Shown: piece after piece, positions 26,498 to 30,159 of the stretch
Layout of the letters: each line of letters begins with the position of its first letter
Numbering within the stretch: position 1 is the stretch's first letter
Assembly (NCBI RefSeq): GCF_007671685.1
Contig: NZ_VCNL01000001.1
Coordinates: 186,001 to 250,000, forward strand
Direction: 5' to 3'
DNA from: Halorubrum salsamenti
Lineage (GTDB): Archaea; Halobacteriota; Halobacteria; Halobacteriales; Haloferacaceae
Length of the DNA: 64,000 nt
The notes under the pieces: model-generated
Seen by the model: only the letters and a program-made list of their open reading frames with translations
Told to the model about the DNA's origin: nothing
Databases searched by the model: none
Program-made: the position numbers and the translations under genes

Positions 26498-27574
26498 TCA
26501 CCCGTGCGCCGAGATCGCCTTCACCGAGAAGCCGGAGCCGACGATGCTCGCGAGGTACAGCGCGATGGCCGTCACGACGATCGACCCTCCAGAGGGGAGC
26601 CCGAGGCCGATCGAGACGGCGAATCCGCCGATCACCGACAGCTGGCCGAAGATCACCGCGAGGTACATCGTCTCGCGGAAGCTCCGGGCGATCTGGGAGG
26701 CGGCCGCGACCGGGACGACGAGCATTGCGGCGACGAGGATGACGCCGAGCACCTGCATCGCGCCGACGACGACGACCGCGGTCATCACCACGAGCAGCGT
26801 GTTGTAGCCGGTGACGTTCAGCTGGGCGACGCGGGCCGCCTGCTCGTCGAAGGTGATGAACAGGAGCTGTTTGTACGTCAACGCGACCCCGGCGACGACG
26901 AGGATCGACAGCGCCCCCATCAGTCGCGCGCCCTCGGCCGTGACGACCGCGAGGTTCCCGAACAGGTACCCCTCGATGTTGATCGCCGTCAGCCCCCGAC
27001 CGTAGCTGACGATCAGCGTGCCGACAGCGAAGCTCCCGCTGAGCATGATCGCGATCGGCACGTCGCCGTAGGCGTCGGTGCGCTCGGTGAGCCACTGGAC
27101 CACGAGCGCACCGAGGATTCCGACGACCAAGGCGATCAGAAGCAGCGAGCCGTTCCAGCCCGTCGCGGCGTTGACGAGGATGCCGATCGCGACGCCCGCG
27201 AACGCGGTGTGCGCGAGCGTTTCGCCGATCAGCGCCATCTCGCGGTGGACGAGGAACGACCCGACGAGCGGCGCGACGACCCCGACGAGCACGCCGACCG
27301 CCATCGACTGCCACATGATCGGGTGCCGGAACACGTTCGTCCCGAAGGCGGCGTCCATCCCCCGCCCGAACGACCGGAACGCGGCGTATAGATCGCTCGC
27401 GACCGGGAGGTCCTGCGCCCAGTAGAGGAGGAGGAACCCGAGCATGCCGAGCGCGACGAACGCGGTGAGGCCGATGCCGGCGAGTTCGATCCGCCGCCGG
27501 AGCCCGCGGTCAGGCCTCGCGTTCGCGTTCGATTCGGTCTCCCCCTCGCCGTCCGGCGTCGCGGTCCCGCTCAT
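26498..27574 (-). CDS. znuB: zinc-type ABC transporter permease
   Basis: 358 residues with about eight or nine membrane helices. IMWQSMAVGVLVGVVAPLVGSFLVHREMALIGETLAHTAFAGVA is the typical ABC-3 family segment. The ~60-residue hydrophilic start is acidic. Its ATG shares one base with the stop of the ATPase gene. Zinc is inferred from the His/Asp-rich binding protein; manganese is an alternative. Confidence 0.87.
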   Translation of the reverse strand: MSGTATPDGEGETESNANARPDRGLRRRIELAGIGLTAFVALGMLGFLLLYWAQDLPVASDLYAAFRSFGRGMDAAFGTNVFRHPIMWQSMAVGVLVGVVAPLVGSFLVHREMALIGETLAHTAFAGVAIGILVNAATGWNGSLLLIALVVGILGALVVQWLTERTDAYGDVPIAIMLSGSFAVGTLIVSYGRGLTAINIEGYLFGNLAVVTAEGARLMGALSILVVAGVALTYKQLLFITFDEQAARVAQLNVTGYNTLLVVMTAVVVVGAMQVLGVILVAAMLVVPVAAASQIARSFRETMYLAVIFGQLSVIGGFAVSIGLGLPSGGSIVVTAIALYLASIVGSGFSVKAISAHG

Positions 27575-28314
27575 CAGTGGTGGTGGTGGACGACCTGTCC
27601 GGTGGTGCCGTACGCCTCCGCGAGGGCGTCGCTCTCGACGAACGACTCGGTGTCCCCGTGGTGGTACAGCTCGGTGTTGATACAGGCGATGCGGTTCGCG
27701 CGGTCGGTGACGACGCCGATGTCGTGTTCGATGAGGATGATGGTGATCCCCTCGTCGTTCAGCTCGTCGAGGAGGGCGTAGAAGGCGTCGCGCGACTCGG
27801 CGTCGACGCCGACCGTCGGCTCGTCGAGCGCGAGGAGGTCCGCGTCGCTCGCCAGGGCCCGAGCGATGTACGCCCGCTGCTTCTGCCCGCCGGACAGCTC
27901 CGAGACGAGCCGGTCGGCGAGGTCGTCGATGCCGACCGTCTCGATCGCGTCCGCGACGGCGACGCGGTCGGCCTCGGAGAGCCTCCCTCGGCCGGCGTGC
28001 GCGAACCGACCCATCGTAACGCACTCGCGGACGGTGACCGGCATCGCGCCGCCCCGGCTGGTCGCCTTCTGTGAGACGTAGCCGATCCGGCCGCCGTCGT
28101 CGAACTCCTCGACCGGTCGCCCGAACAGTTCCACAGAGCCCGCGTCGGGCTCGTGGAGTCCGAGCATGAGGTGGAGCAGGGTGGTCTTCCCGGAGCCGTT
28201 CGGCCCGACGAGCCCGAGGAAGTCGCCCTCCTCGACCGTCAGAGAGACGTCGCTCACGGCGACGGTGTCGCCGTAGGAGAACGTCACGCCGTCGAGGTCG
28301 ACGATTGCGGTCAC
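27574..28314 (-). CDS. znuC: zinc-type ABC transporter ATP-binding protein
   Basis: 246 residues. Walker A GPNGSGKTT, Q-loop YVSQKAT, signature LSGGQKQR, Walker B LLALDEPTVGVD and switch His (LIEHDIGVV). The C-terminus ends in four histidines (VVHHHH), which may hold metal. Sits between the binding-protein and permease genes on the same strand. Confidence 0.9.
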   Translation of the reverse strand: MTAIVDLDGVTFSYGDTVAVSDVSLTVEEGDFLGLVGPNGSGKTTLLHLMLGLHEPDAGSVELFGRPVEEFDDGGRIGYVSQKATSRGGAMPVTVRECVTMGRFAHAGRGRLSEADRVAVADAIETVGIDDLADRLVSELSGGQKQRAYIARALASDADLLALDEPTVGVDAESRDAFYALLDELNDEGITIILIEHDIGVVTDRANRIACINTELYHHGDTESFVESDALAEAYGTTGQVVHHHH

Positions 28315-28408: not shown

Positions 28409-29440
28409 CTACGCGCCGAACGCCCGTTCGAACGCGGGGACGTTGACCTCGGTCATCTGTTCGAGGTAGCCGTAGCCGGCGTCGTTCCACTCCTCCGTCG
28501 TGCCGCCGGCCGGCGAGACCGCGGTCGTCTCCGTCGCGTCGCTGTTCTCGACTATCGTCTCGGCGAGCCTGGTCGACTCGAAGCGGTCGTAGAGGATCGT
28601 GTCGATTCCCTCGGCGTTCACCAGCTCGATGGTGTCGGCGATCTCGCTCTGGCTCGGCTCGTTCTGCGGCGAGACGCCGACCGGCGAGTGGAGCCGGAAC
28701 CCGTAGCGCGCCTCCAAGTACTGGAAGGAGTTGTGGCCCGCGATGACGGCCACGTCGCGGGCGGCGTCCTCGGCGATCGACTCGAACGCGGCGTCGACTC
28801 CGTCGAGCTCCTCGGCGTACGCGGCCGCGTTATCGGCGTAGACCTCGGCGTTGTCCGGATCGGCCTCGCCGAGCCCGGCCGCGATGGTGTCGACCATTTC
28901 GGCCGCGAAAACCGGATCGACCCAGACGTGGGGATCGTACTGGCGGTCGTTGTTGTCTCCTTCGCCGTCGTGGCCGTCCTCGTCCTCGTCGTGGGGCTCC
29001 CCGTCGTGTCCGTCTTCACCTTCCTCGTCCTCGTGCGAATGGTTCCAGTCGAGGAGATCGTCCTCGACGTCGGCGAGCGCGTCGATGACGGCGACGGAGT
29101 CGTAGTCGGCCTCCAGCGTCGCGGCGAGGTCCTGCGCCCACGAGAACTCGGGGCTATCGAGGTAGACGAACGCGTCGGTCGAAGCGATGTCGGCGGCGAG
29201 GTTGCCGTCAGGCGTCCACCCGTGGCCGAGACGGCCGACCTCGACGGGGCTCTCGAAGCTCGCGCGGTCGCCGGCGACCGCGTTCGCCCAGTCGTTGAGC
29301 GTAAAGAAGGCGGCGTACCCGCCGTCGAACCCGGCGGTGCCCTCGTCCGCGGCGCCAGAACAGCCGGCGAGAGCGGTCGCCGCGCCGGCGGCCAGCAGTC
29401 CCGCGCCGCGCTTCACCACCGATCGACGTGAGTGAGCCAT
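28409..29440 (-). CDS. znuA: Tat lipoprotein, zinc/manganese-binding ABC substrate-binding protein
   Basis: 343 residues. Twin-arginine start (SRRSVVKR), hydrophobic stretch and lipobox (ALAGC), so exported folded and anchored. TroA/ZnuA fold with a His/Asp/Glu-rich loop at ~128-160 (HSHEDEEGEDGHDGEPHDEDEDGHDGE is the region), then DPHVWVDPVFAAEM and VIAGHNSFQYLEARYG containing likely metal ligands. ATG 29440 is preferred over GTG 29449 because it keeps the signal compact. Transcribed with znuC and znuB downstream; a palindrome lies upstream. Confidence 0.9.
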   Translation of the reverse strand: MAHSRRSVVKRGAGLLAAGAATALAGCSGAADEGTAGFDGGYAAFFTLNDWANAVAGDRASFESPVEVGRLGHGWTPDGNLAADIASTDAFVYLDSPEFSWAQDLAATLEADYDSVAVIDALADVEDDLLDWNHSHEDEEGEDGHDGEPHDEDEDGHDGEGDNNDRQYDPHVWVDPVFAAEMVDTIAAGLGEADPDNAEVYADNAAAYAEELDGVDAAFESIAEDAARDVAVIAGHNSFQYLEARYGFRLHSPVGVSPQNEPSQSEIADTIELVNAEGIDTILYDRFESTRLAETIVENSDATETTAVSPAGGTTEEWNDAGYGYLEQMTEVNVPAFERAFGA

Positions 29441-29470
29441 ACCCGTCACTACCGCGTTTTAACAGAAAAG

Positions 29471-29488
29471 TATTGTTATTTCACAATA
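29471..29488 (-). promoter_or_regulatory. TATTGT-N6-ACAATA operator candidate upstream of znuA
   Basis: A perfect 6-bp inverted repeat spaced by six bases. On the minus strand a TTTATTAAAC box (29492-29502) lies just upstream, so the palindrome falls between TATA box and start site, where a bound repressor would block transcription. A metal-responsive DtxR/Zur-like protein is the obvious candidate; none is encoded nearby. Confidence 0.6.
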
Positions 29489-29568
29489 GAAGTTTAATAA
29501 ATCTCGGGCGCGAGAGCGGGTTCGATTAACAACGTGGGTTCCGCGGGCGAACCTGGCGGGCGATCCGT

Positions 29569-30063
29569 TTACCCCGTGAGATCGACAGTCGTCGCGTCAG
29601 CGAGATCCGCGAGCCGCTCGGGAGGGATCGCGAACACTGCGCTCGGCGTCCCCGCCGCACCGTAGACGGTGTCGTACCCCGCGAGCGTCGGGTCGAAGAC
29701 GGTCGGCAGCGCGGCGTCGTGACAGATCGGCGGCACGCCACCGATGCTCCAGCCGACGACCTCGCGTATCTCCTCCGGATTCGCCATCGCCGCCGAGGCC
29801 GCGCCGAACCGCTCCGCGACCGCGTCCAGATCGAGCCGATTCGCGCCGCTCGTGATAGCCGCGACGAGGGACTCCGGACCCGCCTCCCGCTCCGGCTCCG
29901 AGAGCGACACCACGATGGTGGAGGCGATCGCCGCGGTGTCACAGCCGACGGCGTCGGCGGCCGCGGCCGCCGTCTTCGTCCCCGCGTCGAACTCCAGCAC
30001 GTCGAGGTCGACGCCGTGTCGGTCTCGCGCTCGTTCCGCGAACTCAGTCGCGCGCTCGTGCAT
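29569..30063 (-). CDS. YbaK/ProX family aminoacyl-tRNA deacylase-like protein
   Basis: 164 residues from ATG 30063 (MHERATEFAERARDRHG). VLEFDAGTKTAAAAADAVGCDTAAIASTIVV and IGGVPPICHD (lysine/glycine pocket region) match the YbaK fold, which in bacteria removes mischarged amino acids from tRNA. Specificity cannot be read. The frame extends upstream to 30111 but the family usually starts with this His-rich Met segment. Confidence 0.83.
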   Translation of the reverse strand: MHERATEFAERARDRHGVDLDVLEFDAGTKTAAAAADAVGCDTAAIASTIVVSLSEPEREAGPESLVAAITSGANRLDLDAVAERFGAASAAMANPEEIREVVGWSIGGVPPICHDAALPTVFDPTLAGYDTVYGAAGTPSAVFAIPPERLADLADATTVDLTG

Positions 30064-30159
30064 GACGAGAAAGAGGTCCGCGGCCGGGTATGAAGCTCTC
30101 GGCCGCGGCACGTATGGCGATCGTTGAAACCGACCGCCGGGCGCGGCGCGGTCGACGCC

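Follow-up and report, generated by a model that had tools for sequence, protein, structure and literature searches.

Upstream of the metal importer operon znuABC of Halorubrum salsamenti lies a TATTGT-N6-ACAATA dyad that is probably the operator of znuABC in Halorubrum, where it would be bound by a homodimeric and probably metal-responsive repressor. It was found in the window, by which we mean the whole 64-kb stretch of DNA that was analysed, among the following features, with negative positions counted from the znuA ATG.

26498..27574, - strand: znuB, metal ABC transporter permease (NCBIfam models)
27574..28314, - strand: znuC, metal ABC transporter ATPase (NCBIfam models)
28409..29440, - strand: znuA, metal ABC transporter substrate-binding lipoprotein with a His/Asp-rich loop (AztC/AdcA/MntC models, all under cut-offs)
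29459..29465, - strand: CTGTTAA, -25..-19, nearly invariant, in the Halorubrum group only
29465..29470, - strand: CTTTTC, -30..-25, adjoins the dyad's right arm; candidate TATA box for leaderless transcription (TTWT count)
29471..29488, - strand: 18-bp dyad TATTGTGAAATAACAATA, proposed operator, -48..-31 (column information in 30 Halorubrum-group promoters)
29483-29488, znuA strand: left arm of the dyad
29494..29500, - strand: TTATTAA box, -60..-54, in TTTATTAAAC; upstream half-element or alternative TATA box (1.83 bits/column)
29527..29533, - strand: GTTGTTA heptamer, -93..-87; a further half-site of the GTTRTTA/TAAYAAC type, upstream of the dyad
29569..30111, - strand as znuA: upstream neighbour, YbaK-like Cys-tRNA(Pro) deacylase (match under cut-off)

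The palindrome reported upstream of znuA in the initial annotation is present as described: the + strand at 29471-29488 reads TATTGTTATTTCACAATA, which is TATTGTGAAATAACAATA on the znuA strand, both 6-bp arms are perfect, and across the whole genome (3.67 Mb) it is the sole match at one mismatch or fewer. It was also the sole match in the window at up to two mismatches, a tolerance at which shuffled windows gave a mean of 0.04 matches and 4 of 100 shuffles gave one, so that the dyad exceeds chance expectation. It lies 31-48 bp before the znuA start at 29440, in an operon with the gene order znuA, znuC, znuB. The same annotation took zinc to be implied by the binding protein, which is plausible for a His-rich ZnuA with AztC and AdcA as its best NCBIfam matches, but the scores stay under the cut-offs. 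The nearest NCBIfam families for the three proteins are zinc importers (AztABC, AdcA) and manganese importers, and the best scores fall short of the equivalog cut-offs (AztC 109.7 against 350, AztA 184.5 against 220, AztB 133.4 against 280); with all scores below the curated cut-offs, zinc is the likely rather than the proven substrate.

Directly upstream of the dyad, at 29492-29501 on the - strand, is TTTATTAAAC, and the earlier placement of the dyad just downstream of this sequence on the znuA strand was correct. The further description of the dyad as sitting between TATA box and start assumed that TTTATTAAAC is the TATA box, and this part may be wrong: CTTTT at 29466-29470, 30 bp before the ATG, is at least as good a candidate, and the more likely one, and the dyad overlaps its BRE position. 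Both boxes are conserved among znuA promoters. If TTTATTAAAC were the TATA box, the dyad would cover the start site and the mRNA would have a leader of about 31 nt, an arrangement compatible with an operator and favoured by the high conservation and fixed spacing of TTATTAA. We consider this reading possible but doubtful, as nearly all znuA promoters, across families, have a better-placed second TTWT within CTTTT or CTTAT 28-31 bp before the ATG; among 51 znuA promoters 98% have TTWT at -30..-27, where the TATA box of a leaderless mRNA would be expected, as against 2.9% of the 275 upstream regions used as controls. Also against it, a Haloferax volcanii study reports that 72% of transcripts are leaderless, with a TATA consensus of TTWT (PMC4983044).

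This geometry suggests how the proposed operator might work. With the right arm lying over the BRE position that immediately precedes the CTTTT box, a bound repressor would exclude TFB/TBP, and a repressor overlapping the BRE of the zinc-import promoter is the likely mechanism. When zinc is sufficient, a homodimeric, probably metal-responsive repressor would bind GTTRT-N6-AYAAC and keep TFB/TBP off the znuA promoter. The sequence comparisons show the site, its conservation, its spacing and its recurrence at znuA and znuC promoters, and from them we infer protein binding, repression and zinc as the signal.

Conservation of the site was examined by fetching 57 znuA relatives, 50 of which had a start codon that could serve as anchor. 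Together with the window's own, these gave 51 promoters, of which 30 belong to the main Halorubrum group (one of them from a MAG that does not bear the name Halorubrum) and the remaining 21 lie outside it. Seven of the 57 (L037, L045, L048, L050, L052, L056 and L064) are outside the promoter alignment, their starts being unplaceable or off the contig, and alignment A1 excludes L013, which has an inverted site, and includes L030 shifted by one base. Every one of the 30 Halorubrum-group promoters has a variant of the site, with consensus GTTGTGAAATAACAAC, whose distance to the znuA start is constant; it takes the RTTRTGAAATAAYAAY form at this fixed place, in some promoters with one or two letters different. 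Within the group, column information averages 1.41 bits over the dyad (-48..-31) and 1.59 bits in the left-arm core (-46..-41), and is 0.28 bits in the gap just upstream and 0.37-0.56 bits further out. In Halorubrum yunnanense the dyad core is inverted in place (GTTGTTATTTCATAATA, L013:2953-2970), agreeing with the group consensus at 14 of 18 letters as its reverse complement and at 10 of 18 forward; a swap of orientation with the arms kept is expected if a symmetric protein reads the site. Two relatives placed close to Halorubrum (of the L060 and L061 type) have no left arm, and the same is true of almost every other family.

A profile (R1) built from the sequences of 29 sites matched 37 of 39 Halorubrum genomes at E values up to 5, a figure to be read with six matches at E 0.7-5 that are at chance level, among them the sole match of one genome (G142, E 4.7). 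The best 30 R1 matches with loci all adjoin znuA. With about one match per genome and all those checked lying at znuA, the site looks like a dedicated Halorubrum operator rather than a regulon box. The exact 18-mer is narrower still: an exact search found no copy in 29 further genomes of the genus, and elsewhere in the family 7 of 147 other genomes contain it, at 8 places in all, around which a tblastn search with the three Znu proteins and two of their neighbours revealed none of the corresponding genes. As the dyad has no second copy in its own genome and its 8 places elsewhere all lie away from znu genes, there is no dyad regulon, and the exact dyad was rejected as a regulon marker. Judged by these comparisons, the exact letters are private to Halorubrum salsamenti within the genus and the site itself is shared. 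The initial annotation had regarded an absence of copies near metal genes as evidence against its proposal; this absence holds for the exact 18-mer, but the underlying element recurs at metal-gene promoters. At one locus with a one-mismatch copy of TTRTGAAATAAYAA (L078), no metal gene was found in view.

The wider element can be seen in the 21 promoters outside the group, mostly from other genera or families, which keep the right arm and the sequence downstream as ATAATAAC-n-CTTTTA (TAAYAAY-n-CTTTTA), along with a TTATTAA or TTAATAA box. From the start of this box to the start of the right arm (TAAYAA) the spacing is 22 bp in 42 of the 51 znuA promoters. The heptamer TAAYAAC/GTTRTTA, which occurs in both orientations, is present in 48 of the 51. 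Its means of 2.03 and 1.29 copies per 120 bp compare with about 0.05 copies per promoter when the znuA promoters are shuffled by dinucleotide. The window promoter has one exact heptamer (29527-29533), from which the arms of the dyad differ by one base. Among the 275 control upstream regions five have the heptamer, a contrast that is partly one of composition since the controls are mostly GC-rich: the rate is 5 of 24 in controls above 45% AT, four of these five being zinc-locus promoters and the fifth within a znu locus. The five control matches comprise two znuC promoters with the element, two cases of the znuA promoter on the opposite strand, and one match in a znu locus (L064). The element is further seen at znuC genes with a promoter of their own and at a gene for a His-rich lipoprotein next to znuA, and a shorter form of it stands at some zinc-type P-ATPase promoters of other species.

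Together, the TTATTAA box, the 22-bp spacing and TAAYAAC suggest ancestral paired half-sites, and the ancestral haloarchaeal site may have consisted of two half-sites, separated by two helical turns, that were compacted to a palindrome in Halorubrum. The genus-wide conservation in a fixed position, the in-place inversion, and the recurrence of the right arm with the upstream box before zinc-import genes in other families give good support to the original suggestion of a regulator site, and we regard it as a genuine and conserved cis-regulatory site, probably a zinc-responsive operator.

Of 34 genomes, 16 contain TAAYAAYNCTTTTA, in a single copy each, against 3 for the backward control, and the 16 matches fall at znuA (11), at a His-rich lipoprotein gene beside znuA (3), at an NRAMP gene (1) and elsewhere (1). 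In some haloarchaea a lipoprotein gene with His/Asp-rich repeats lies directly upstream of znuA and shares the promoter element (L124, L126, L136). NRAMP promoters (upstream regions L167-L178) share a TCTYAACAAGG-like stretch, unlike the znuA element. In 52 genomes the pattern GTTATTA-N3-30-TAAYAAC has 31 places, of which 22 are at znuA (most assigned by a position shared with R1 matches, G271 by gene and three by sequence alone) and 9 elsewhere versus 17 control counts. TTATTAA-N10-30-TAAYAA was found at 20 places in 12 genomes, 10 at znuA and 10 elsewhere versus 14 in the backward control. A paired-heptamer regulon was rejected, as the counts away from znuA are at chance level (10 versus 14; 9 versus 17). 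In three genomes including Halorubrum salsamenti, perfect inverted heptamers, GTTATTA-N11-TAATAAC, span a GGAGG stretch before the start of a gene that reads as cobN-like (L269, L259 and L272, near position 1501). In one genome, paired heptamers stand where a NikR-like gene and a NicO/RcnA-like gene diverge (L257:1501-1534; both named by eye), the latter encoding a protein without a Pfam match.

If the site is an operator, the question of its regulator arises, and a narrower form of our explanation would assign it to a DtxR-family protein of the SirR, MntR or 'ZntR' kind, which we hold as a tentative, minority reading. The genome encodes several such proteins (10 PF01325 matches, 7 over the cut-off; domain architecture was read for three). 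Work on Halobacterium describes SirR control of zurM-zurA-ycdH (PMC1779511, PMC3600143), a Mn-type operon that is likewise a haloarchaeal metal ABC importer under a metal-responsive repressor. The Halobacterium plasmid operon that we equate with it (L199, taken as ycdH by operon and plasmid, not locus tag) differs from znuABC in that its substrate-binding protein is about 27% identical to ZnuA and its promoter has another repeat, TCTAAATTTAGATTTAGA, in place of GTTRTTA/TAAYAAC, so that this published SirR target does not share the dyad element. The TCTAAATTTAGATTTAGA repeat upstream of 1360 in L199 is a candidate SirR site. Also against the DtxR reading, no heptamers were found at six DtxR genes within their 3-kb loci.

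Zinc-type DtxR (ZntR) regulons were reportedly predicted in archaea by comparison, by Leyn and Rodionov in 2015, and are said to have palindromic sites at TroA-type zinc uptake operons, as is the case here; their prediction may already include sites like the znuA dyad. A zinc-responsive transcription regulator of haloarchaea was not found in the literature searched, a scope outside which the key DtxR papers fall. Neighbour clustering of 57 loci with 3-kb flanks, read by eye, revealed no conserved regulator gene beside znuABC, and a linked regulator was rejected. Nothing in the data places the dyad with either of the regulator families first proposed, DtxR/SirR or Zur.

A different explanation is that ATAAYAAC serves the CTTTT TATA box as its BRE, possibly in a variant form read by an alternative TFB, with the palindrome incidental. 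Since the right arm coincides with the BRE position, part of the conservation could indeed be core promoter; distant families keep the right arm with CTTTTA, and position and spacing fit the BRE-TATA arrangement of a leaderless mRNA as described in the Haloferax study (PMC4983044). We nevertheless consider this unlikely as the whole explanation. In Halorubrum the left arm is equally conserved (1.59 bits at -46..-41) and lies outside any BRE, the heptamers are found in both orientations, and TAAYAAYNCTTTTA is not a general promoter element, since none of 34 genomes has more than one copy.

The Zur (Fur-family) operator of the initial annotation, for which the function of the operon and an AT-rich palindrome could be cited, is very improbable and close to refuted for this assembly (99.96% complete), in which the FUR model PF01475 has two weak matches (22 bits, model positions 10-72), the scanned one scoring higher as HTH_20 and ArsR, and these were rejected as winged-helix proteins beside flavoprotein reductases (mercuric-reductase type by eye) rather than Fur. 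Two ArsR-like regulators, at L197 and L198 (G000 C20 and C5), have a C-terminal KPCEYC-HY motif and stand beside flavoprotein disulfide reductases. The bacterial Zur box is GTTAT-N3-ATAAC. Bacterial Zur boxes at znuA are likewise palindromic, AT-rich operators overlapping a zinc-importer promoter, but their half-sites are N3 apart versus N6 in the Halorubrum GTTRT-N6-AYAAC, and Zur systems have a Fur-family protein, of which there is no clear example in the Halorubrum salsamenti genome.

Returning to the proposed repressor, a link of the paired element to zinc export is a lead. Six of the 10 TTATTAA-N10-30-TAAYAA places away from znuA lie upstream of zinc/cadmium-type P-ATPases (5 promoters, 5 genomes). 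In one zntA group of 18 loci, TAATAAC stands 30 bp before the start in 10 of 10 alignable promoters, a count that leaves aside 8 loci with unplaced starts; in six of these a 'GLIT/ELIT' run was read that fits TAATAAC, L239 has TAATAAC itself and L238 TAATAAT. Among the zntA paralogues L245-L256 no heptamer was found in the stretches read (the start being unplaced for some), and several of L246-L256 carry TTGGAATATTCCAA in its place. In one group of zinc-type P-ATPase genes a TTGGAATATTCCAA-type palindrome, different from the znuA dyad, immediately precedes a CTTAT box. The chromosomal zntA of Halorubrum salsamenti has TTGGAATACTCCAA, which is TTGGAATATTCCAA with one change, and lacks the znuA element; at L288 (G000:C12, - strand) TTGGAATACTCCAA is just upstream of a zntA-like gene. 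The zntA copy on C20 has no exact heptamer. We keep the export link as a lead because the counts are not above control, a second zntA group is without the heptamer, and the chromosomal zntA palindrome differs.

Control of zinc import in haloarchaea has also been described at the RNA level: the s479 sRNA study (PMC8155600) concerns the znu operon of Haloferax volcanii, a haloarchaeon with the same transporter type, where control is post-transcriptional, unlike that by the proposed operator, and the main text of the study nowhere uses the word 'promoter'. A broader and rather improbable scenario is that a non-Zur zinc regulator of haloarchaea reads paired TAAYAAC half-sites, represses znuA, znuC and the His-rich lipoprotein gene by overlapping the BRE, and acts on export by P1B-2 ATPases; if true, such a regulator would be a dual import/export type of metalloregulator. 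For Halorubrum itself, a highly conserved site with one target per genome and a related element elsewhere could serve as bait for finding the regulator and as a guide for mutation.
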